From positions 1 to 20,534 of IMG/VR virus record IMGVR_UViG_3300032116_001594: a DNA stretch of 20,534 bases; one strand, given 5' to 3'. Of this stretch, positions 3,620 through 19,240 are shown in pieces. The stretch comes from a virus. The position numbers and the translations under genes were made by a program. Every line of letters starts with the position of its first letter. Positions within the stretch are counted from its first letter, which is position 1. A model generated the notes under the pieces. That model worked only from the letters and a program-made list of their open reading frames with translations, had not been told where the DNA came from and did no database searches.

Positions 3620-3910
3620 TCAACCGATGCCAAACCTGCGGCCCACCTCGTTCAGTGCCTCCTGACGCTTGGCACAGCCACAGTCGCCGCCGACGACCGC
3701 ACTGACACGCTCCTTCGTGATGCCGACGGCGGTGAGCCCTGCGGCGACCATGTCGCCCAGTCCGGGGCGAGCGTGCGGGTAGGCGGGGTGCGTCTCGTCC
3801 ACGACAATGGATTCGCCGTCATCCGATACGATGCAGGCCCGCACCTCCTCCAGCGTGTAGCCACGCTCGTCGCATCGTGCCAACAAATCAGACAGCACGC
3901 ATGTAATCAT
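3620..3910 (-). CDS. Small conserved phage tail-region protein
   Basis: The product is 96 residues, beginning MITCVLSDLLARCDERGYTL. The ATG at 3910 overlaps the TGA of the fibre-like gene (ATGA), so I start here and not at the in-frame ATG further upstream. The protein has an acidic middle and a characteristic C-terminus, VGGDCGCAKRQEALNEVGRR, with paired cysteines (Cys-Gly-Cys). I have the impression that similar short endings occur in other small phage tail-module proteins, but the function is unknown. It is the last gene of the leftward structural operon. It may bind a metal or assist the preceding tail-fibre protein. Confidence 0.6.
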   Translation of the reverse strand: MITCVLSDLLARCDERGYTLEEVRACIVSDDGESIVVDETHPAYPHARPGLGDMVAAGLTAVGITKERVSAVVGGDCGCAKRQEALNEVGRRFGIG

Positions 3911-8324: not shown

Positions 8325-8807
8325 TCATACCCCCGTTAGCTGAAAACTAGCCGTCCCCTCCACCACCGCGTTCACGGCCGCGGTCATGTCGTAGCCAAGA
8401 AGCATTCCGTTAAGCGAAAACTTGATTGTGTTCTGCGGGTGTGTGACGACCATCGTCTGCACGTTCCCGACCATCGCGTCACCAAGTTTCCCGACCCCAT
8501 GCCATGAGATTTCGACCGTGCCGGGAGTGATGTCCCCGGCGATCAAATGGCGGATCATGCCCGAGTGCGTCGCAGCCCCGTTCGCCCCCGTGAACGACTT
8601 GTACGAGCTAGCCAGCCCGGTCACGTCCTCGGTCGAAACCTTCGGGCTGCCGTACTTGAAGCTCGTGAGGCTTCCGAGAACGATTCCGCCCCACGAGACG
8701 GTCAGCCCCTGGGAGTCCTCGATCAGCGTCCCATGGCCGAAACACCTTGGGCATTGCTGAAGAGCAAATATTCCGGTGCCGCCGCATTTCGGGCAGGTGT
8801 AGGCCAT
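8325..8807 (-). CDS. Tail-tube-like protein with N-terminal DnaJ-type zinc motif
   Basis: The product is 160 residues. Residues 5-26 hold two CxxCxGxG repeats (CPKCGGTG, Cys5/Cys8; CPRCFGHG, Cys19/Cys22), a four-cysteine zinc finger like that in the DnaJ central domain. From about residue 34 comes a beta-rich tail-tube fold (LTVSWGGIVLGSLTSFKYGS, GDITPGTVEISWHGVGKLGD, NTIKFSLNGMLLGYDM, AVVEGTASFQLTGV). The C-terminus matches that of the neighbouring protein at 8823-9269 (xxAAVNxVxxGxAxFxLT), so the two are paralogues. The ATG at 8807 has AGGAGG upstream. A zinc finger fused to a tail tube subunit is unusual; it could aid assembly, decorate the tail or contact the host. Confidence 0.7.
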   Translation of the reverse strand: MAYTCPKCGGTGIFALQQCPRCFGHGTLIEDSQGLTVSWGGIVLGSLTSFKYGSPKVSTEDVTGLASSYKSFTGANGAATHSGMIRHLIAGDITPGTVEISWHGVGKLGDAMVGNVQTMVVTHPQNTIKFSLNGMLLGYDMTAAVNAVVEGTASFQLTGV

Positions 8808-10490: not shown

Positions 10491-11111
10491 TCAGCACCTG
10501 CCATTCCATGAGACGGACCCGAGCATCTGACGAACCGCCAGGTCTTCCCGCAGGATCACGCTCGGATCGTCGCCACGCGAGCCGTACAGCTGGGCCACCA
10601 TCCGCATGATCGCGGCCTTCACCGGCATGGGCACGCCGAGCGGGTCCACCGTGCCGCCCCACCACTTGATGGTGGCATTGCCGTCGCAGCAATACCCCGA
10701 GATTCCCCGCAGGAGCCGCACGCGGCCCGGCAGCTCGTCCGGGTCCACACGCAGATCCTCGTCATTCACGTACGAGATCGATCCGTCGTCCTCCTCGTAG
10801 GTGATCATGACCGAGTGTTCATCGTCATAGAGCAGCGGCGGATACGGCATCTCGACGCCGCGGCACGTGCAGGTGTTCCAGTTGGAAAACTTCGCCTGCC
10901 ACCGGGTCGCCGTGAACGTGCGGCTCGTGAACTCCTCGGCGGCGTACCGGCACGCCGAGATCAGGGCCCCGATGTAGGCGTCGTCGTCTGCCTGCTCAGG
11001 CAGGAGCCGTAGATGCTCCTTAGCCTCGGCCACCGACACGGGCTCGACCGCTGGCTCCACGATCCGACGGACCGACCGGAAGATGCTCGGCGTCGTTAGG
11101 AGCGTATACAC
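10491..11111 (-). CDS. gp6-like head-tail connector protein
   Basis: The product is 206 residues from GTG 11111 (MYTLLTTPSIFRSVRRIVEP). The core is that of the HK97 gp6/phage_connect family: PVSVAEAKEHLRLLPEQADD, then DAYIGALISACRYAAEEFTS, then RTFTATRWQAKF. It ends with a helical part, PVKAAIMRMVAQLYGSRGDD. These helices form the ring under the portal. An insertion containing NTCTCRGVEM and GYCCDGNAT adds cysteines not usual for the family. The start lies one base after the stop of the small head gene, so translation is coupled. The order (capsid, small protein, gp6, stopper, gp10) is canonical. Confidence 0.85.
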   Translation of the reverse strand: MYTLLTTPSIFRSVRRIVEPAVEPVSVAEAKEHLRLLPEQADDDAYIGALISACRYAAEEFTSRTFTATRWQAKFSNWNTCTCRGVEMPYPPLLYDDEHSVMITYEEDDGSISYVNDEDLRVDPDELPGRVRLLRGISGYCCDGNATIKWWGGTVDPLGVPMPVKAAIMRMVAQLYGSRGDDPSVILREDLAVRQMLGSVSWNGRC

Positions 11112-11112
11112 G

Positions 11113-11307
11113 TCAGCCCTCGTCGTGAGCGATATGGGCGGTTCTCTTGTTGGACTGCTTCGCCGTGGCGTGCCGAACCTGCGGCCTGTCGCCCTCGATG
11201 ACGGCGACGCCGTGGGTCACCAGCTGCTCCGCTTCGTAGTCCGTAGCCTCGCGGACTTCGCCCACGGAGTACGGGCCCAGCGGCTTCAGATAGCGAACGA
11301 GTGGCAC
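11113..11307 (-). CDS. Small head-module protein
   Basis: The product is 64 residues from GTG 11307, with GAAGGAGG five bases upstream, a very strong binding site. Sequence MPLVRYLKPLGPYSVGEVRE then ATDYEAEQLVTHGVAVIEGD, with a basic C-terminus. Short proteins of this kind ('V+fl.p...Y..Ge....' then 'A..Li..G.A') sit between capsid and gp6 genes in many HK97-like phages and have no firm function. It lies after the terminator hairpin that follows the capsid gene, so its expression depends on readthrough. Confidence 0.65.
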   Translation of the reverse strand: MPLVRYLKPLGPYSVGEVREATDYEAEQLVTHGVAVIEGDRPQVRHATAKQSNKRTAHIAHDEG

Positions 11308-11327
11308 GGTGGCCTCCTTCGGGTATG

Positions 11328-11369
11328 AAAACCCCGGGCACGCCGCAGGTAGCGACGACGTGCCCGGGG
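11328..11369 (-). terminator. Intrinsic terminator/attenuator after the major capsid gene
   Basis: On the minus strand, CCCCGGGCACG (11369-11359) pairs perfectly over 11 bp with CGTGCCCGGGG (11342-11332), with a 16-base loop, followed by TTTT (11331-11328). It lies 17 bases beyond the capsid stop and before the next head gene. Partial termination here would raise capsid message over connector and tail genes. Confidence 0.75.
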
Positions 11370-11385
11370 GTGGCGAAGGCTGACG

Positions 11386-12651
11386 TTATGCCGACTTGAG
11401 GGCCGCGAGGTACTTGGACGCCATCACCGCGAAGGCGTAGCGAGCCGTTCCGACGAACACCGTCTGGTCGTACTCGATGGCCCGCTCCCAGCTGGAGCGG
11501 ATCGTGAGACCACGCTTGTAGCCGATCGCGGCGGCCATCGAGAAGTCGCCGTAGACGGCGTACGTCTTCGCGGGCAGGAGCGAGGTCTTGATGACCGGCG
11601 ACCCGAAGATCGTCTGGGTCACGCCCTGCGTCACGTTGACGCCAATGGCACCGGCCGCAAGGCCCATGACCTTGGTCCAGCCCTCGTCGCTGACGAGCCA
11701 GACACGGTTGCCCGCCATCGGATCGACCTTGCCGATCACGGACGCGATCTCGTCGATCGTGACCTTGCCGGCGGCGGCCGTCGTGACAGTCTGCCCGGAC
11801 GGGATGCTCGGGACGATGCCCGCGAACCCGATCTTGGCGTCGCCCTGGATCAGCGTCTTGTCGAGCTTCTTGGCGAACGCGTTGCCGATGGTGCGGGTGA
11901 CCACCTGGGCCACCGACACGTACGCGTCTTCCATCAACTCGTTGGAGACCTGGGCCCGAGCGCCCATCTTCTTGAGATCGAGCGTAGCCCGCTTGGTGTT
12001 GGGCTTGATCGGCAGGATCTCGCAGTTCTCCTCGTACCAGTCGGCTTCCTGGATGTCTTCGCCGAGCGGCACATACATGCCGTTGGTTCCGACCTGGAGC
12101 CACGTCGCCAGCTTCGCGGCGACCGACTCGTAGTTGATGACGTTCAGGATGCCCCGATACATCTCGTGGGCGACGAGTTCCGAGCCGCGGCCGTCGTACA
12201 GGGTCGACTTCTCGCCCATGCTATCGGGCTCAAGCGTGTCGTTCACCCCGATCGGGTGCGTCGACGCGGTGACGGCACGGATCTCGCGGATACGGCCGTG
12301 GGCCAGATCGACAAGCGACTTGCCGACCGCCTCGGCGGTCTCGATCTCGAATCCCCGCTGCTCGCCCATGATCGGGAGCGGCTTGAGGGCGGTCGCGGTG
12401 ACGGTCCGCTTCGGGGCGACCACGAGCCCGGCGTTCGTCACGCTGGCGGTGCTGCGGGTCTCGGCCTGGGCGAGGACTTCCTCGACCTTCTCGGTCCGCT
12501 CGATCTGGTCAAGGACAGACCGGAGTTCGGTGGCCTCGGCGTCGACGGTGGCAGCCTGCTCCTCGGTCGGGGCGGCGGCATCGGAGAGGGATCGGACTTC
12601 GGTGGCGAGGGTCGCCTTACGCTCGTGGAGCTTCTGGAGTGCGGGGGTCAT
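11386..12651 (-). CDS. Major capsid protein, HK97 fold
   Basis: The product is 421 residues. The N-terminal 1-75 or so is a charged coiled coil (LQKLHERKATLATEVRSLSD, ELRSVLDQIERTEKVEEVLA), the delta/scaffold domain that the prohead protease removes. The HK97 core follows: VINYESVAAKLATWLQVGTN, PLGEDIQEADWYEENCEILP (E-loop region), LDLKKMGARAQVSNELMEDA (spine/P-domain motif) and FGSPVIKTSLLPAKTYAVYG. It ends VFVGTARYAFAVMASKYLAA. These are the order and motifs of the phage_capsid family. The ATG at 12651 has AAGGAAA upstream. The gene is separated from the prohead protease by about 4.3 kb of unrelated genes, which is unusual. Confidence 0.93.
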   Translation of the reverse strand: MTPALQKLHERKATLATEVRSLSDAAAPTEEQAATVDAEATELRSVLDQIERTEKVEEVLAQAETRSTASVTNAGLVVAPKRTVTATALKPLPIMGEQRGFEIETAEAVGKSLVDLAHGRIREIRAVTASTHPIGVNDTLEPDSMGEKSTLYDGRGSELVAHEMYRGILNVINYESVAAKLATWLQVGTNGMYVPLGEDIQEADWYEENCEILPIKPNTKRATLDLKKMGARAQVSNELMEDAYVSVAQVVTRTIGNAFAKKLDKTLIQGDAKIGFAGIVPSIPSGQTVTTAAAGKVTIDEIASVIGKVDPMAGNRVWLVSDEGWTKVMGLAAGAIGVNVTQGVTQTIFGSPVIKTSLLPAKTYAVYGDFSMAAAIGYKRGLTIRSSWERAIEYDQTVFVGTARYAFAVMASKYLAALKSA

Positions 12652-12735
12652 CGTGTCGGTTTCCTTGTGAGGGTGCCGAACGACGCCGTCGCCCGGTTTG
12701 GGGCAATCGTCGAAAAACGAAAACGACCCGTGAAG

Positions 12736-13017
12736 TTACTTCGTCGGATTGGCGATCTTCTCAACGATCGACCGCACCTCGGGATCGTCGCGGACCAACT
12801 GCGTGAGCTTCACGCCCACGAGATACCAGAACTCCCGGCCGGGCTCCTTCTTGAACTGACGCAGCACGAACGCCGCGATCTCGCGGAACGCCTCGGCCCG
12901 TGCCGGCAGGTCGGGTGCCGTCTCGGCCTTGTGCAGCATCGCGAGGATCGGCCGCCAGTGCAGCACCTCCGTCACGTCGTCGATGATGCCGCCTACGGGC
13001 TCGGGAGCCGGTCGCAT
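12736..13017 (-). CDS. Small helical hypothetical protein
   Basis: The product is 93 residues, starting MRPAPEPVGGIIDDVTEVLH. It is mostly helical and amphipathic (WRPILAMLHKAETAPDLPAR, AEAFREIAAFVLRQFKKEPG, FWYLVGVKLTQLVRDDPEVR). It has no membrane segment or signal peptide. It overlaps the end of the preceding membrane protein gene by 25 bases, a long overlap that supports coupling but leaves the start uncertain; a GTG further in is possible. It is the last cassette gene before the capsid. Function unknown. Confidence 0.5.
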   Translation of the reverse strand: MRPAPEPVGGIIDDVTEVLHWRPILAMLHKAETAPDLPARAEAFREIAAFVLRQFKKEPGREFWYLVGVKLTQLVRDDPEVRSIVEKIANPTK

Positions 13018-13367
13018 AGGTCATCCAGTTGTTTCTGAATCGCCATGAGGAGGGCCCGGTTTTCGTTCTGTAGGTTCGTGATTGCCTCGACGCGACGCCC
13101 ATCTTCGGCGTCGTTGCTCGTGATCTCTTCCTTCAGGAGTTTGTTGGTTTCAGCGATGGCCCGCACGGCCTCGCGGTATTCCGCCATCAGCGGCTCTAGC
13201 ACCTTGGACGCGGCCCACCACCCGCCGACGAGTAGCACGACAGGGGCCAGGCCGAACCGGTCGAGGCCACGCATCAACTGATCGGTCGCCTGCCGCTGCA
13301 CCGACGCCGGGGCCTTCCGCCTGGCTCGCGGCTTAGGGCGGGCGGCGTCTAGGTTCCCTTCGGTCAT
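12993..13367 (-). CDS. Membrane-anchored coiled-coil protein (possible holin-like or accessory lysis protein)
   Basis: The product is 124 residues. It has a basic N-terminal segment (ARPKPRARRKAPASVQRQAT), one hydrophobic segment (FGLAPVVLLVGGWWAASKVL, about residues 37-56), and then a long charged coiled coil (YREAVRAIAETNKLLKEEIT, VEAITNLQNENRALLMAIQK). The positively charged N-terminus and single span suggest an inner-membrane protein with a helical domain. Such topology is seen in some holin-like and spanin-like phage proteins, but no family motif is evident. It starts four bases after the stop of the PEP-CTERM gene with no clear binding site, so it is probably translationally coupled. 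Confidence 0.5.
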   Translation of the reverse strand: MTEGNLDAARPKPRARRKAPASVQRQATDQLMRGLDRFGLAPVVLLVGGWWAASKVLEPLMAEYREAVRAIAETNKLLKEEITSNDAEDGRRVEAITNLQNENRALLMAIQKQLDDLCDRLPSP

Positions 13368-13371
13368 ATGG

Positions 13372-13851
13372 CTACGGGCGGCTGCGTGCCCTCATGTAGA
13401 ACCCGGCCGCCAACACCGCACCGGCTACGAGCAACGCTAACGGGCCGGGCTCGGGCACCACAACCAAATCGTATTGAGAGCCGTCAACCACACCGGTGCG
13501 GATCTCCCAGCCCGACGACGCGAACGTCTGGAAGTCGATCACGTCGCCGCTCGCGGGCGTGGACCACGACGCGTTGATGATGCGGAGCGGGATGTTCTTG
13601 AACCCGTCGACATCCACCGGAATCGGTGCCGCGGTCCAATCGGCGGCCGTCAGCGTTTGCCCTGTGATGAGCCACTGTTGGGCGGTCGTGTTTGCCATCT
13701 GCCATTGGAGGTCTGGGGCCGCCACGGCGGGCCGCAGCGATGCATACGAGCCGACCGGGTTGGCTGTTCCGTTGGCGATCCATCGGCCTGTCAGAGTTCC
13801 GATGGCCGTCGTCGTGGTCGTGCTGGTTGGAACGAGGGTGATCGTGCTCAT
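13372..13851 (-). CDS. PEP-CTERM sorting-signal protein encoded by the phage
   Basis: The product is 159 residues. The C-terminal 28 form a complete PEP-CTERM signal: VPEPGP (from residue 132), a hydrophobic span LALLVAGAVLAAGFYM, and a basic end RARSRP. In hosts with exosortase this tripartite tail directs membrane anchoring, cleavage and cell-surface or exopolymer sorting. The body (Thr/Ser/Ala-rich, with WIANGTANPVGSYASLRPAV, AADWTAAPIPVDVDGFKNIP and SSGWEIRTGVVDGSQYDL) looks like a beta-sandwich surface protein. No N-terminal signal peptide is visible, although PEP-CTERM proteins normally have one; export is therefore unexplained. The ATG at 13851 overlaps the previous stop (ATGA). Confidence 0.65.
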   Translation of the reverse strand: MSTITLVPTSTTTTTAIGTLTGRWIANGTANPVGSYASLRPAVAAPDLQWQMANTTAQQWLITGQTLTAADWTAAPIPVDVDGFKNIPLRIINASWSTPASGDVIDFQTFASSGWEIRTGVVDGSQYDLVVVPEPGPLALLVAGAVLAAGFYMRARSRP

Positions 13852-14261
13852 GGGATCGGCTCCAGGGTACAGACACCGTTTCTGCACACCTTGCGGTATG
13901 CAATGGGTTTCGCCGCGGCCGGTGGCGGCGTCGGTGCCGCTGGCTTCGGGGCCTCGGCGGCCTTGAACGCTTCGGCCTCCGCGGGCGTGTCGAACGCCGC
14001 CGCAGGTTTCTTCCCGGTGCCGTTGCACGCCCCGCATTTCACAAACACGGTGCCGTCACCGAGTTTTCCGGTGCCGCCGCACTCCTCGCAGGTGTCGCCC
14101 TGGTCCGGCTTGTCTGGGCTCGGCACCTTCAGCGGTGGAGCCTCGCGGGCCACGTGCAACGCCAGCCACGCCCCGAGTCGGCACTCCTCGTGCAGCGTCA
14201 ACGCCGGGGCCGTGGGGCCGCAGCCCGCGACGAAGATCACGAGCGGCAGGAGGCGTTTCAT
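13848..14261 (-). CDS. Lipoprotein with DnaJ-type CxxCxGxG zinc motif
   Basis: The product is 137 residues. It starts MKRLLPLVIFVAGC, a lipoprotein signal with Cys14 as the lipidation site (VAGC). Residues 58-83 carry CEECGGTG and CGACNGTG (Cys58/61/76/79), the four-cysteine zinc site of DnaJ central domains. An Ala/Pro-rich linker follows, and the end is YRKVCRNGVCTLEPIP with two more cysteines. It is probably a periplasmic or outer-membrane-attached protein; the zinc site may be structural or redox. GGAGG lies 8 bases upstream, and the start overlaps the protease gene stop (ATGA). The same motif, with shared DNA sequence, is present in the tail tube gene at 8807. Confidence 0.7.
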   Translation of the reverse strand: MKRLLPLVIFVAGCGPTAPALTLHEECRLGAWLALHVAREAPPLKVPSPDKPDQGDTCEECGGTGKLGDGTVFVKCGACNGTGKKPAAAFDTPAEAEAFKAAEAPKPAAPTPPPAAAKPIAYRKVCRNGVCTLEPIP

Positions 14262-15289
14262 ATCAACGCCTCCAGCCCGAGATCAGGCAGTTGCCGCGGC
14301 TCCCACTTTTGAACCGTGTTCACGGCCGAACAGAACCGCGACGAGATGTCGGACCACTTCGCCCAGAACGAACCCTCGGGGATTGAGTATTCCGCCCCGC
14401 GAATCTTTGTCGGGCCCGAAATCCACGACTTGCCCCACGAGTTTTGCACGAGGATCAACCCGCCGCCGTATTTCTTCCGCGTCTCTTCGCGGTCGTCCAC
14501 GCCCAGGTAGGCGAGGGCGTGCGACCATCGGCCACTCCTCGACGATACGCCGTCCTCGTTTCTCTTCGACGAGAATCCCTCGCCGCCGCAGCTGGTCAGT
14601 GCGAACCCCGAGGCGATCATGTCGCGAACTTCCTCGTAGGACTTGCACCGCGTCACCGTCGAGACCTTGTGGCCGCCGAGGGCCTTGATAACGTCCTCGG
14701 GCGGGCGGTTGCTGCCGTACTTGTGGGCGGTCGCCTTGGAGTACTTCGTCAGATCCCAGTTTGCGTCGGGGTGGTTCCGGCGGCTCACGGCACCGATCTT
14801 GCCGATGGCGACTTCGAGGGCGGCCTCGCACGACCAGCCGTCTCCCGAGTAGCCACGGCACGCGTAGATCGCCTCCGGGGCCAGCACGCCCTGGGAGATG
14901 CCCTCGGGCACCGTGATGGGCGGCCCGGATAGACCGTGGTTGATCGCGGTCGAGAGCGTTCCGAGGATGGCATTCTTGGTCGAGTGGCTGACACAATCGC
15001 CCACAACCTGGGCGGCACCAGGCAGCGCCGTGCGGCCGAACGCCTTGAATATCTCCTCAGAGATCAGGCAGAGCTTCCCCTGGCCTTGCTCCATGAACCC
15101 GTAGGCACCGGCGACCTCAGACGCCTCCCACAGCCCGCCGGCCTTGATGACCTCGTCCTGCAACCGCTCGCGGCCTTCGGGATCGTGCCACGCCCCGATG
15201 AATCCTTGTGCGTACGCTTCCGCCGGGTTGTCGAGTTCTGCCGGTTGAAGCTCCCACTTCACTTTCTCAAGACGAGGTAGGTCGGGCAC
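14258..15289 (-). CDS. Papain-like (C1 family) cysteine peptidase
   Basis: The product is 343 residues from GTG 15289 (GAGGTG upstream). The papain catalytic set is visible in order: Gln94 and Cys99 (AAQVVGDCVSHSTKNAI), His257 (GRWSHALAYLGVD) and Asn283 within VQNSWGKSW, the hallmark NSWG segment. Additional cysteines (144, 154, 215, 234) could form disulfides. There is no signal peptide and no obvious prodomain; the N-terminal 85 residues are a helical region of unknown role. It lies in the cassette between prohead protease and capsid. Possible roles are degradation of host envelope protein, a lysis enzyme acting with the nearby membrane proteins, or a virion-associated peptidase. Family assignment is firm; role is inference. 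Confidence 0.8.
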   Translation of the reverse strand: MPDLPRLEKVKWELQPAELDNPAEAYAQGFIGAWHDPEGRERLQDEVIKAGGLWEASEVAGAYGFMEQGQGKLCLISEEIFKAFGRTALPGAAQVVGDCVSHSTKNAILGTLSTAINHGLSGPPITVPEGISQGVLAPEAIYACRGYSGDGWSCEAALEVAIGKIGAVSRRNHPDANWDLTKYSKATAHKYGSNRPPEDVIKALGGHKVSTVTRCKSYEEVRDMIASGFALTSCGGEGFSSKRNEDGVSSRSGRWSHALAYLGVDDREETRKKYGGGLILVQNSWGKSWISGPTKIRGAEYSIPEGSFWAKWSDISSRFCSAVNTVQKWEPRQLPDLGLEALI

Positions 15290-15293
15290 GATT

Positions 15294-15725
15294 TCACCTC
15301 ACGGCCTTTCCGGCCTCGATGAGGGCCGACGATACCTGCTGCCGCATGGCATCGGTCACCTGCGTCACGTCCCTGCCCATCGCCTTCATGATCTCTTGGT
15401 TGATCGCCGCGGCGACCGCCGGATACTTCCGCGAAGGGTTATGGCTCACGTAGTCGAACTCCGTGACGGCCTTCACGTAACGCTGCAGCTCCTCGGTCGT
15501 GTTAACGAGCCCGAGTTTGTCGGCCAAGAGCATTTCCCCGGCGGCGTCCAGTGCCTCGGATAGAACCTCCCGGTCCTTCGCCTCCATCGACGCAGCCGCC
15601 GTATGGAGGCTCGACATCGAGCCCGTGTACGGACCCGCCGGGCCGGGCGTGACCGCCGCGGGACCAGCGAACACGTACCACAACACAGCCGCCGCCACCG
15701 CGTAACGGATCAAGTCGCCGTTCAC
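15294..15725 (-). CDS. Membrane-anchored hypothetical protein
   Basis: The product is 143 residues from GTG 15725, which overlaps the preceding TGA (GTGA) with GGAGG upstream. An N-terminal hydrophobic segment (RYAVAAAVLWYVFAGPAAV, about residues 7-25) acts as a signal anchor or signal peptide. A Pro/Gly linker follows, then a helical domain (AKDREVLSEALDAAGEMLLA, TEELQRYVKAVTEFDYVSHN, AAINQEIMKAMGRDVTQVTD). No family recognised. It lies directly before the papain-like protease gene and could anchor or escort it. Confidence 0.55.
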   Translation of the reverse strand: MNGDLIRYAVAAAVLWYVFAGPAAVTPGPAGPYTGSMSSLHTAAASMEAKDREVLSEALDAAGEMLLADKLGLVNTTEELQRYVKAVTEFDYVSHNPSRKYPAVAAAINQEIMKAMGRDVTQVTDAMRQQVSSALIEAGKAVR

Positions 15726-15991
15726 TTGGTGGGGCCTCCTCCGATCAGGATCATGGCAGCCTGCCCGAGCAGGTCCGCCGCCTTGGGGTTGATTCCCCGC
15801 ACGGCGTCCTGCATGTCGAGCACTTCCGTGATGAGCGAGGAACGCCCAGCACCGGCGGCGGAAGTCTTGGGCTTCGCCGCCGCCGGTGCGTGGGACATTT
15901 GCTGCTCAACGTATGCCTTGATCTTGGGCCAGAACACGACGGCGATAACCGCCGCGACTGCCAACATCTGGGGCTGCGTTAGTTGCGGCAC
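15722..15991 (-). CDS. Small single-span membrane protein
   Basis: The product is 89 residues from GTG 15991. I chose this start because GGAGGA precedes it at good spacing; the frame is open further upstream but overlaps the CHG-repeat gene. The protein begins MPQLTQPQMLAVAAVIAVVF and has one membrane span (about residues 9-21). A WPKIKAYVEQQ helix and an Ala-rich linker follow, then a C-terminal helical stretch (SSLITEVLDMQDAVRGINPK, AADLLGQAAMILIGGG). It starts 13 bases inside the end of the CHG gene. It may be holin- or anchor-like; no family recognised. Confidence 0.55.
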   Translation of the reverse strand: MPQLTQPQMLAVAAVIAVVFWPKIKAYVEQQMSHAPAAAKPKTSAAGAGRSSLITEVLDMQDAVRGINPKAADLLGQAAMILIGGGPTK

Positions 15992-16362
15992 GAGCAATCC
16001 TCCGGGCAGTCGCAGGTGACCGGGATCGCCTGGGCCGTGCCATGGCACGATGCAGACGCCTTCTTGGCCTGCGAGCCGTGGCAACCTCGGGACGCGACCC
16101 GCTCGGCACGAGCCGAGGCACGATCAGCCCGAGCATCCGCCCGAGCAGAACGCCTATCAGCCCGCCGCTCCGCACCGGTGGTGCGACCGTGGCAGCCGCT
16201 TTCCGCCTGCTCCGCACCGTGGCACGACGCCGCGGCCGGGGCAGCCGAACCGTGGCAGCCCGCAGCTGCCGTCGGTGCCGAGTCGTCAGGGGACGCACCC
16301 GCGAGGGCGACGCCCACCAGACCCGCGAACACCATGCCAGCAAACATGAGATAGGAACGCAA
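15979..16362 (-). CDS. Secreted Cys-His-Gly ('CHG') repeat protein
   Basis: The product is 127 residues, starting at TTG 16362 (AAGG 7 bases upstream); an in-frame ATG at 16347 would still leave most of the signal. N-terminal signal peptide MRSYLMFAGMVFAGLVGVAL with cleavage near AGA-SP. The mature protein has five Cys-His-Gly tripeptides (Cys36, 47, 57, 94, 106). They are split by a highly basic/acidic block of R-A-D/E-R-x-A-R repeats (about 66-91), and a final CDCPEDCSC cluster follows. No CxxCH haem motif is present. The repeated Cys-His pairs suggest metal binding or disulfide cross-linking outside the cytoplasm. I know of no characterised family; the name is descriptive. Confidence 0.65.
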   Translation of the reverse strand: MRSYLMFAGMVFAGLVGVALAGASPDDSAPTAAAGCHGSAAPAAASCHGAEQAESGCHGRTTGAERRADRRSARADARADRASARAERVASRGCHGSQAKKASASCHGTAQAIPVTCDCPEDCSCRN

Positions 16363-16392
16363 AGGATCACCTTCTTTCTGTGGTTGAGGGTT

Positions 16393-17001
16393 TCAGGACT
16401 TCCGTTGACGGCCAGATTCGGGCGCGTCGGTTTCGTCGGTGCCAGGCTCGTAACCGGGCATTGGCCGGCGGTCGTCGGAACGCTTGCCGTCAGCCTTGAA
16501 CGACGCGGGGCCGTTCTCGGTCGAGGGGGCAACCTTCGTGCCCTCGCCCTTCTTGCCGTCGACCTTTGAATGACCTTCGGCGTCGGTTGTCACCGTCGCG
16601 GGGGTCACCATCTCCGTGATCTCGGCAACCGGGACGGCACCGAACCCGCCTGGGATGGCAGGGGCGATCGTGTCCGCAGCCGTGAACGAGAACACCGCCG
16701 GGGGCGACTGATTGCCCGCGTCGTCGATGTCAACGAGACGCATATCGACCTCGTCGCCCTCGTTGAACTTGAGACCACCGAACTTGATCGTGGTGCCGGG
16801 GGTGTCGATCACACCGGCCTCTTCGCCGTTCACGCGGAGCGTAAGCCGACGGGTCACCACGTCACCATCCGACGGGGCAGCAACAGAAACTTCGTACACC
16901 AGAGCCATAGGGAATCCCTCCTCTTTGACGATCCGAACCTCTGCCTCCGGACGTGCCGGGGCACTGTGCCCCGAGATCCACCGCCAGAAGGTGTTGAACA
17001 T
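16393..17001 (-). CDS. Ig/FN3-like beta-sandwich protein with alternative starts
   Basis: The product is 202 residues from the ATG at 17001, which overlaps the protease stop (TGATG) and has AAGAGG upstream. A second in-frame ATG at 16908 has an even better site (GAGGAGG, 8 bases) and would give a 171-residue form lacking the Trp-rich leader MFNTFWRWISGHSA. The domain ALVYEVSVAAPSDGDVVTRR, LTLRVNGEEAGVI, DMRLVDIDDAGNQSPPAVFS and FTAADTIAPAIPGG has the strand pattern of an Ig/FN3 domain. The tail is hydrophilic and disordered (GKKGEGTKVAPSTENG). Possible roles are virion decoration or surface adhesion. It is the first gene of the accessory cassette. Confidence 0.6.
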   Translation of the reverse strand: MFNTFWRWISGHSAPARPEAEVRIVKEEGFPMALVYEVSVAAPSDGDVVTRRLTLRVNGEEAGVIDTPGTTIKFGGLKFNEGDEVDMRLVDIDDAGNQSPPAVFSFTAADTIAPAIPGGFGAVPVAEITEMVTPATVTTDAEGHSKVDGKKGEGTKVAPSTENGPASFKADGKRSDDRRPMPGYEPGTDETDAPESGRQRKS

Positions 17002-17939
17002 CACCGATACCTCTTGCACGCGTACCACTGACCGCCGGAGCCTTGGGCGGTCCCTTGATCGACCACAGCCATGCCACTGTTGCTGTAACAGCAATTCGCC
17101 AGCGCTGACTCCGGGCTGGGCCCTGAGCCGCAGCCCTCGTAGCCGCGGTTTCCGCCGAAGTGGCCCACGCGGCCGAGCCGTGCTTGGATCTCGGCCACGC
17201 CTTGGGCCGTCGAGGTGTCGCCGCCCGCCGGGGCCGCAGCGTAAGACGATCCGCTCGACCGCCGCCGTCCGATGGCGTGAGCGTCGCTCATGACCAGCAT
17301 CACCAGGAGCAGGGCACCCACGCAGCGGGCCAGCGTCAGCACCGCAGCCGCCCGGGACTTGGTCGCCTTCCACCGCTGCGACTCACTGAATGGCACCTTT
17401 GCCTGCTCGGCCTGCCACGCCTGGAACGACCGAACGCTTACCGCCGTGGCGTCGTACGCTGGCTGCGTCACGAGCGACACGTCGTACAGGTTCGACGCCT
17501 TGCGGATGTAGCGGGTCGTGCTGCCGTCTTCCTCTTGAACGTACCGCTCGTCACCCTCGGCAACCGTGAACGCGAACGAACTGCCAGAAATGTCGCCGCG
17601 ACGCACCAGGGTTAAGAGATCCCGGGCCAGCGTCGTCTCCGGGGGGTCGATCTCGTAGCGGAGGCCCTTGTCGTCGCTCCACAGCCGGAGCGTGCCCGAC
17701 GTGGTACGCCCGAGGAGCGAGCCGCTTTCGTGGTTCCACAGGGCGACCACGTCCTGCCTCTTGCGGGCGAGAAGGTGGTCAAACGCCCCAGGCTCGATGA
17801 CCTCGCGGAACCCGCCGAGGTCCTTGCTCTTGGAGTTGTAGACCGCCGCCAGGCCGCGGATCTTGGGGGCCGACCCGGACCGCTCCTCGACTTCAAGGGG
17901 CTCAGTGTCGGCGGTTTCCATGAAACGGCGTTCAATCAT
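17001..17939 (-). CDS. HK97-family prohead protease with C-terminal secreted-type extension
   Basis: The product is 312 residues. Residues 1-175 form the phage prohead protease (serine peptidase): KIRGLAAVYNSKSKDLGGFR, EVIEPGAF, His70 in ALWNHES, the Ser region ISGSSFAF (118-124), and YDVSLVTQPAY. It cleaves the capsid scaffold domain during maturation. Residues 196-222 (RAAAVLTLARCVGALLLVML, then VMSDAHA) look exactly like a signal peptide or membrane span. Then comes a Ser/Ala linker and a Cys-rich domain, GNRGYEGCGSGPSPESAL, ANCCYSN and QWYACKRYR. The latter resembles short secreted planctomycete domains from memory. The frame is continuous with no obvious internal start, although a GTG exists at Val182. 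The start overlaps the portal stop (ATGA). Confidence 0.85.
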   Translation of the reverse strand: MIERRFMETADTEPLEVEERSGSAPKIRGLAAVYNSKSKDLGGFREVIEPGAFDHLLARKRQDVVALWNHESGSLLGRTTSGTLRLWSDDKGLRYEIDPPETTLARDLLTLVRRGDISGSSFAFTVAEGDERYVQEEDGSTTRYIRKASNLYDVSLVTQPAYDATAVSVRSFQAWQAEQAKVPFSESQRWKATKSRAAAVLTLARCVGALLLVMLVMSDAHAIGRRRSSGSSYAAAPAGGDTSTAQGVAEIQARLGRVGHFGGNRGYEGCGSGPSPESALANCCYSNSGMAVVDQGTAQGSGGQWYACKRYR

Positions 17940-19240
17940 TGCTCGGACTCCACGGGGGTCTGTTCAGCCGGGGCCGCCGCTGGCTCCAGGCCCTTCATCA
18001 TTGGCTGCTCGTACGCCTGGCTGATCGGCCGTAGGTTGTTCACGGGGATGAACGGTTCGTCGGCGGCCTTGGCGTCGAGCGGCGGCAGGTCTTCGAGTTT
18101 GCGGACCTCGTTAATCGTCATCACGCCGCTGCCCAGCATCGCCTGGTAGTACGCCGCACGGGCGGCCGAGTCGCCACGCAGCACGCCGCGAACGTCGAGC
18201 TGGAAGGCGTAGTCGGGCAGGCCGTCGAGTAGGCCACGAGTGAACGACGATTCGACCCGGCGGCACCACGGCACCAGAGCGTGCATCCACGTCAGGGCCT
18301 CTTGTTCAGCACTCGCACCGGAGCCCGGCATCCCGAGCATCGACGGCGGCACCCGCATGGCACGGGCCACCTCGTAGACGCAGAACTCGCGAACCGCGGT
18401 CCACTGGGAAGCCTCGTTAGTCACGCCGGGCAGCTGTTTGACGGAAACGCCGTTTGGCAACACCGCTGTACGCCCGGCGTTGCCGACGCCGCGGTGAATC
18501 TGCTCCCACTGTTGGCGGAGTTTCGTCAGCGCCTCCTGCGGCACCGGCTGGCTCGTCTCAAGGATCACGCCGGGCCGGGCGTCGTTCGCCCAAAACCGCT
18601 GGGCGTAGAGATCCATTGAGCGGGCCTGTTGGATCACACCGGATGCCAGCGTCAGCGGCACCATCCCGGCATATCCGTTATCCGTCAGATAGCGGGTGTG
18701 GATGATCCGGTCCGACCGGAACCGGCGGGCGGAATCCGGCTGGCCTCCGTCGGCCATGTAGTCGTAGACGACCTCGTTGGTGACCAGCTGCGACGGCGTC
18801 ACGTGCGACGGGTGCAGCGGCCACAGTTCCGACACGCGGCCCCGCGAGTCGTAGACCTTGAGCAGGTAGGCGTTTCCCCACGTGGCAACGTGCCCGACGT
18901 GCTGCTCCAGCATCTCGTAGGACGACTGCATCGGGTTTGGCCGGTCGTGTACCAGGGTGTACAGCGGGTGGGCCTCGGCACGCTCGCGGACATCGCCCCG
19001 AGTGTTGAGCAGGTGAAACGGCAGGCTCGCCACGCTCTCCGAGATGACCCGGACCGCCGCGTGAAACGCCGCCAACTCAAATGCGTGCCGCTGCGTTACG
19101 TCGGTTCCGTCCTGCGGGCCGATCCAGCGAATGGGGCCCAGCGAGTTGTCGAAGAACCACGGCCGCGTGAACGCATCACGGACCTCGCTGCGTTTGGGCA
19201 GCACGGCCGTAATCGCGGCAGATAGGCGTTCTCGGATCAT
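17936..19240 (-). CDS. Portal protein, HK97 family
   Basis: The product is 434 residues from the ATG at 19240 (AAGGTG upstream). The frame is open for 42 more codons but would overlap the terminase and is Arg/Trp-rich nonsense-like. Family segments are QRHAFELAAFHAAVRVISES, VASLPFHLLNTRG, HPLYTLVHDRPNPMQSSYEM, GNAYLLKVYDSRGRVSELWP, YAQRFWANDARPGVILETSQ and AMRVPPSMLGMPGSGASAEQ (the 'fgVPp.llG' motif). It ends AMLGSGVMTINEVRKLEDLP. This order is diagnostic of HK97-type portals. The dodecameric portal is the DNA entry/exit vertex and docks the terminase and the gp6-like connector. Confidence 0.92.
   Translation of the reverse strand: MIRERLSAAITAVLPKRSEVRDAFTRPWFFDNSLGPIRWIGPQDGTDVTQRHAFELAAFHAAVRVISESVASLPFHLLNTRGDVRERAEAHPLYTLVHDRPNPMQSSYEMLEQHVGHVATWGNAYLLKVYDSRGRVSELWPLHPSHVTPSQLVTNEVVYDYMADGGQPDSARRFRSDRIIHTRYLTDNGYAGMVPLTLASGVIQQARSMDLYAQRFWANDARPGVILETSQPVPQEALTKLRQQWEQIHRGVGNAGRTAVLPNGVSVKQLPGVTNEASQWTAVREFCVYEVARAMRVPPSMLGMPGSGASAEQEALTWMHALVPWCRRVESSFTRGLLDGLPDYAFQLDVRGVLRGDSAARAAYYQAMLGSGVMTINEVRKLEDLPPLDAKAADEPFIPVNNLRPISQAYEQPMMKGLEPAAAPAEQTPVESEQ

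Follow-up and report, generated by a model that had tools for sequence, protein, structure and literature searches.

A conserved papain-like peptidase module in planctomycete-associated phages, a candidate protease-based lysis system

The locus

The window, i.e. the whole stretch of DNA analysed here, is a linear 20,534-base viral fragment from IMG/VR (IMGVR_UViG_3300032116_001594). Its minus strand encodes, in this order, a large terminase subunit (TerL) cut off by the contig end, a portal protein, an S78 prohead protease, nine open reading frames (ORFs), an HK97-type capsid protein (phrog_10, E 2e-42), connector and tail proteins and the tape measure protein; an integrase is encoded on the plus strand. 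The subject of this report is the nine-ORF block (12736-17001) between the S78/HK97 prohead protease (PF04586 in Pfam, E 3e-42; TIGR01543 in NCBIfam, E 2e-32) and the capsid gene. From upstream to downstream, its products are an "Ig" protein, a CHG-repeat protein, the small membrane proteins MPa and MPb, a papain-like cysteine peptidase, a lipoprotein with CxxCxGxG motifs, a PEP-CTERM-like protein, the membrane protein MPc and the soluble protein orf93 (Table 1).

An earlier, sequence-only reading of this DNA had described nine same-direction genes between protease and capsid. This description holds: all ORFs are present, their junctions are tight and the block recurs with 100% identical proteins in a second contig (L002), in which TerL is additionally preceded by the small terminase subunit (TerS) and a methyltransferase-like gene. 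A home-made coding-potential gene caller recovered eight of the nine ORFs and missed CHG because of its odd composition. Including both flanks, the junctions measure -1, +30, -13, -4, +4, -4, -4, +4, -25 and +84 bp, with 4-bp start/stop overlaps at several of them. No sigma-70-like promoter was found in 11000-18000, a consensus that may not be that of this lineage, and the best terminator-like hairpin is located at 11369-11332, directly 3' of the capsid gene.

The papain-like peptidase

Residues Q94, C99, H257 and N283 of the peptidase are invariant across 13 aligned sequences, and a strict pattern detected the catalytic motifs in 54 of 65 family members, the others deviating at one pattern. 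Its AlphaFold model (predicted local distance difference test, pLDDT, 83.3; predicted template modelling score 0.86) had 76 matches in the PDB at E<=1e-3; among the matches listed, almost all were C1A peptidases, for example xylellain, Lpg2622 and cathepsin B, and the best was 3ois (E 4e-9). Sequence search alone connects the enzyme to papain weakly; there was no Pfam, PHROG or NCBIfam match (Pfam and NCBIfam up to E 0.1). In a tblastn search of 50,697 deposited phage records, the window papain, the papain of a relative, the type B papain and the matrixin (both described below) were all without a match. By its predicted fold and conserved residues the protein is assigned to a divergent C1A clade, with proteolysis as its predicted activity. 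An affiliation with the NlpC/P60 or CHAP peptidoglycan peptidases was rejected, as the fold search gives C1A proteases. Matches in BFVD were mostly C1 peptidases, and two were proteins annotated as N-acetylmuramidase or peptidoglycan-binding.

Conservation and position of the module

Scans of IMG/VR yielded 25 relatives with a single-sequence search and at least 127 with a profile search; neighbour clustering took in 87 papain loci. By profile comparison, a module composed of Ig, MPb, papain, CxxCxGxG lipoprotein and MPc is present in more than 100 viral contigs, its carriers being 35-kb temperate phages, a 62-kb phage, phages of about 200 kb and chromosomal prophages of Planctomycetota. The order across the 87 loci is fixed: a small transmembrane (TM) protein (families cl7/cl48), cl1 (the MPb family), often cl18 (the Ig family), papain and cl2 (the lipoprotein family). 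In 78 loci papain or Ig is immediately preceded by cl1, in 47 loci cl18 directly precedes papain, and in 74 loci cl2 immediately follows it. Mid-size phages also encode the TM proteins cl28 and cl29, with the soluble cl27 upstream. In the relative closest by capsid (L027, 71%), the order papain-MPc-orf93-capsid is kept despite a papain that is only 42% identical.

The module has several addresses: before TerS-TerL in the family of the complete temperate phage G014 (34,969 bp), in the 200-kb group, in the 62-kb phage, and between protease and capsid in the window. Most temperate relatives carry it upstream of TerS-TerL and one prophage between head and tail genes. In G014 itself, it lies between RusA/helix-turn-helix regulator genes and TerS-TerL-portal-protease-capsid, and all 19 G014-family loci covering the region possess it. 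Judging by synteny, the module is a core gene set of these phages of which the position alone varies, and on the conserved synteny a chance insertion or a degenerating block was rejected. The term "accessory cassette inserted between protease and capsid" in the sequence-only reading therefore placed the emphasis wrongly. Numerous G014-family contigs (L145, L147, L153-L156, L165, L171 and others) start about 455 bp before TerL, which suggests that this stretch is hypervariable or repeated and breaks assemblies.

Enzyme exchange, export and hosts

Two papain types, A (G014-type, ~332 aa) and B (~306 aa), occur in the G014 family. They are 30-34% identical, and most loci carry type B, in which Q, C, H and N are kept. 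Both types alternate at one locus (L157, L161, L162, L175, L192, L198, L212, L214, L163, L172 and L167, and L246 to L273) among flanking module genes that are mostly 45-85% identical. Such exchange of an enzyme among fixed partners resembles the behaviour of endolysin genes.

Papain homologues were also found in chromosomal contigs of Planctomycetota: apart from G032, 13 of the 391 genomes sampled contained them, against one weak extra match among 291 genomes from the phylum to which a Synechococcaceae metagenome-assembled genome (MAG) belongs. The surrounding genes, named by eye from their sequences, encode similar small membrane and Cys-rich secreted proteins, and the prophage module either precedes terminase-like genes or separates the head genes from the tail genes. 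Several prophage homologues (L034, L312, L135, L137, L138 and L140) bear an N-terminal membrane segment, which points to activity outside the cytoplasm; across the papain family, one of 65 members has a strongly hydrophobic N-terminus. In L141 (L033), binned as Synechococcaceae, a subtilisin-like protein was seen by eye upstream of the papain homologue, as if the module's second protease had been swapped.

A second protease in the large phages

Beside papain, the 200-kb group encodes a matrixin that resembles matrix metalloproteinases (MMPs; L064:7887-8714 and 37 other unique sequences). The motif HExxHxxGxxH and the cysteine switch RCGxPD are present in all 38 unique sequences. Neither the window nor the mid-size relatives encode the matrixin. 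L064 and its relatives also encode a single-chain RNA polymerase of ~1470 aa that fuses Rpb2 and Rpb1 domains, and an actin of the Volactin family.

Search for endolysin, holin and spanin

Complete relatives were available as genomes closed by exact terminal repeats, namely G014 (127 bp), the 62-kb G025 (127 bp) and two genomes of ~204 kb (123 and 127 bp). The 56 called proteins of G014 had no muralytic family among the best 25 of 41 Pfam families (to E 2e-4), these 25 being packaging, head, replication and regulatory families. PHROGs gave 25 of 78 families for this proteome, and the Pfam run is therefore the main test there. Among the 22 Pfam families of G025 at E<=1e-3 none was muralytic, and Phage_lysozyme, Amidase_2, M15_4 and SLT each scored 0 of 30 in each set of relatives searched. 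In distant TerL relatives that lack papain (L281, L298, L300, L302, L306 etc.), inspection by eye revealed no endolysin in the vicinity of TerL, and these contigs could not serve as a swap control. Of the outcomes that the sequence-only reading had named as refuting its view, neither a canonical endolysin in the genome nor a unique, degenerating block was found in relatives.

The candidate holins in the module are single-TM proteins, a role suggested by their topology. Candidate spanin parts are the lipoprotein and the TM-plus-coil proteins, with no family match. An impression by eye that cl29 is BhlA-like was dismissed, as there was no such Pfam match.

Other genes of the block

The features of the block are collected in Table 1. 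The name "Ig" is a label only: the Ig-like protein of the sequence-only reading has no Pfam or NCBIfam match and is retained as the conserved phage family cl18. MPa weakly matches cl48 (10%, E 7e-4), and cl7 equals cl48 at 97% in profile-profile comparison. MPb gave a confident helical model (pLDDT 89.9) that matched no PDB fold at E<=1e-3. CxxC..CxxC is retained in 49 of 53 members of cl2. The PEP-CTERM assignment stands in part, as the motif (TIGR02595, 17.7 bits) passes the NCBIfam cut-off of 16 and fails the Pfam cut-off of 20.7, and no N-terminal signal peptide is present at the sole sensible start, ATG 13851. Neither this protein nor CHG has a counterpart among the module families in profile-profile comparison, by which both are local additions. 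Protein orf93 probably belongs, by its profile match, to cl27, a family that usually stands upstream of the module.

Table 1 Coordinates and characteristics of the block genes and of the upstream neighbour
Feature	Length (aa)	Position	Strand	Characteristics
Prohead protease (S78)		17001..17939	-	Upstream neighbour; extra C-terminal secreted-type, Cys-containing segment
"Ig" protein	202	16393..17001	-	Family cl18, profile match 100%, E 1.5e-61
CHG-repeat protein	127	15979..16362	-	N-terminal signal/TM; 9 Cys, 5 of them in CHG
MPa	89	15722..15991	-	One N-terminal TM; by position equals small TM proteins cl7/cl48
MPb	143	15294..15725	-	N-terminal TM and helical domain; family cl1, profile match 98.7%, E 2.6e-15
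Papain-like cysteine peptidase	343	14258..15289	-	No signal peptide; assigned by alignment and predicted fold
CxxCxGxG lipoprotein		13848..14261	-	CxxCxGxG...CxxCxGxG and C-terminal CxxxxC; family cl2, profile match 99.5%
PEP-CTERM-like protein		13372..13851	-	C-terminal PEP motif, TM, basic tail
MPc	124	12993..13367	-	One TM, then predicted coiled-coil-like tail; family cl29, profile match 95.7%, E 3.5e-9
orf93	93	12736..13017	-	Soluble; weak cl27 match 40%, E 5e-5

The C-terminal third of the prohead protease comprises ~110 extra residues with a signal/TM-like stretch (residues about 199-217), RRxSSG and Cys residues. Upstream of MPa, G025 has an independent gene (L310:12116-12718) for a secreted protein of 200 aa that contains Cys and whose N-terminus resembles this extension. 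A gene fusion or an internal start could account for the arrangement in the window, and the extension may represent a further envelope-directed domain for the module. Elsewhere in the window, a tail-region protein (8325-8807) begins with CPKCGGTG...CPRCFGHG and shares the CxxCxGxG motif with the block lipoprotein. Close relatives of a 96-aa protein (3620-3910; RGYTLEEVRACIVSDDG...ETHPAYP) are encoded at the G014 terminal repeat and in G025, which makes its gene a candidate marker of planctomycete phages. G025 (L308-L311) also encodes gamma-glutamylcyclotransferase-like and class-II glutamine amidotransferase domains, kinds of genes also named in Phage-ZRK32 (PMC10945688).

Function of the module

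The late position, the inheritance as a unit, the membrane partners and lipoprotein, the anchored variants and the lack of a recognisable muralytic enzyme in complete relatives favour the view that the block serves late envelope disruption (lysis), with a protease as its recognisable enzyme; from these genomic features, we put its probability at about 0.6. A lysis or envelope role had already been suggested by the sequence-only reading, and the support now gained is indirect, drawing also on synteny, the lambda-like position and the second protease of the large phages. As gene order and tight overlaps suggest, the module would be produced late and co-transcribed with the head genes, and the papain-like peptidase would substitute for an endolysin. 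One or more of the small single-TM proteins MPa, MPb and MPc may permeabilise or organise the inner membrane in a holin- or spanin-like manner, a role proposed from topology. The soluble peptidase would reach the periplasm via its TM partners, and in some prophages its N-terminal anchor could serve self-export; once there, it would break down protein responsible for the cohesion of the planctomycete envelope. The Cys-rich lipoprotein might assist in the periplasm or outer membrane, possibly through reactions involving thiols or metals, a speculation based on its conserved Cys motifs. In the 200-kb relatives, the cysteine-switch metalloprotease would act alongside papain. Rather tentative is the wider proposal that a transferable lysis module based on proteolysis completes the infection cycle of planctomycete phages of very different sizes, 35-kb temperate phages as well as phages of up to 205 kb, with papain (plus the MMP-like zymogen in large phages) standing in for a peptidoglycan hydrolase.

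The planctomycete wall was long described as protein. Planctopirus limnophila can do without most of its peptidoglycan-synthesis genes, and an effect on the rigidity of its wall has been suggested for a Cys-rich YTV protein (PMC10632474); both make an envelope protein plausible as the target.

Several points weigh against a protease-based lysis. No C1A enzyme is known to cleave peptidoglycan. Planctomycetes possess peptidoglycan and are sensitive to lysozyme (PMC4432640), and a muralytic protein or fold could be hidden among the genes of these phages that have no assigned function. Among the small TM proteins, the holin matches (Phage_holin_10, E 0.0024; a PHROG holin, E 0.05) and an Rz-like spanin match (E 0.14) were below threshold and came from 200-kb relatives. 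Within the relatives searched, PG_binding_1 was found in the matrixin ORF beside papain only; because this ORF aligns with full-length pro-MMPs, the match may represent an MMP-type pro-domain and not peptidoglycan binding. As the window genome is incomplete, the lack of a classical endolysin noted in the sequence-only reading means little by itself; it was re-tested on complete relatives, and in two of them none is recognisable. The hosts of the viral contigs, Planctomycetota, are inferred from prophages and MAGs. Phage release need not be lytic either, since the planctomycete phage Phage-ZRK32 has been described as released without lysis (PMC10945688).

Alternatively, the protease and its anchored partners could trim receptors on the host or keep later phages out. 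Such surface modification or superinfection exclusion, also raised by the sequence-only reading, agrees with the signal, lipid or TM targeting of several products and with the resemblance of the PEP-CTERM and CHG extras to surface proteins, and the swapping of types A and B is compatible with an arms race as well. Exclusion genes are usually patchy in distribution, whereas the module is carried by 19 of 19 region-covering members of the G014 family and by ~200-kb as well as temperate phages; moreover, it is embedded among late structural genes without a promoter-like site of its own, and we consider exclusion rather unlikely.

The vicinity of the capsid and protease genes in the window, the placement of the module in one prophage between the head genes and the tail genes, and a weak match of the Ig protein to the virion family phrog_28751 (E 0.097) would suit papain and Ig being packaged in the virion, acting on the envelope at penetration or on virion proteins at assembly. 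This appears quite unlikely, as the partners have signal peptides, lipoboxes or TM segments, unlike virion proteins, and in most temperate relatives the module is found outside the head genes, before TerS. Least likely of all is a cytoplasmic protease for host takeover or counter-defence with the small membrane genes as unrelated neighbours: although the enzyme of the window lacks a signal peptide, its neighbours are conserved across unrelated genomes and, in the G014 family, beside two papain types, the planctomycete-prophage homologues have N-terminal anchors, and the position of the module is late.

Tailed phages are thought to require a peptidoglycan-degrading enzyme for host burst, and no paper on the lysis of planctomycetes by phages was found in the literature searched. 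If true, lysis by this module would be a new solution, with a protease module in the usual place of the endolysin, and a protein network would be load-bearing in the planctomycete envelope. The module could then provide genetic and biochemical tools for the long-standing debate on what holds planctomycete cells together: protein, peptidoglycan or the two combined.

Comparison with known systems

The window enzyme shares its predicted fold, the Q/C/H/N tetrad and an NSWG motif with C1A peptidases such as papain, xylellain, Lpg2622 and cathepsin B. In contrast to these, it has no curated-profile match and no recognised typical pro-domain, and is phage-encoded within a conserved module. The matrixin of the 200-kb relatives has in common with the matrixins/MMPs (M10A) HExxHxxGxxH, the RCGxPD cysteine switch and an MMP-like pro-domain; it differs from animal MMPs in being phage-encoded and adjoining papain, the zymogen arrangement being alike. 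Two CxxCxGxG motifs and a sub-threshold DnaJ match (E 0.029) relate the lipoprotein to the DnaJ-type CXXCXGXG zinc domains, although it has two repeats only, is secreted or lipid-anchored and lacks a J-domain. As for the whole module, its position before the terminase in temperate relatives is that of the lambda S-R-Rz/Rz1 cassette, and like a lambda-type cassette it combines a soluble enzyme with flanking small TM proteins and a lipoprotein; the anchor-bearing papain versions recall signal-arrest-release (SAR) endolysins. Unlike in the lambda-type cassette, the enzyme is a predicted protease instead of a peptidoglycan hydrolase, and no partner scores above the threshold of a holin or spanin family.

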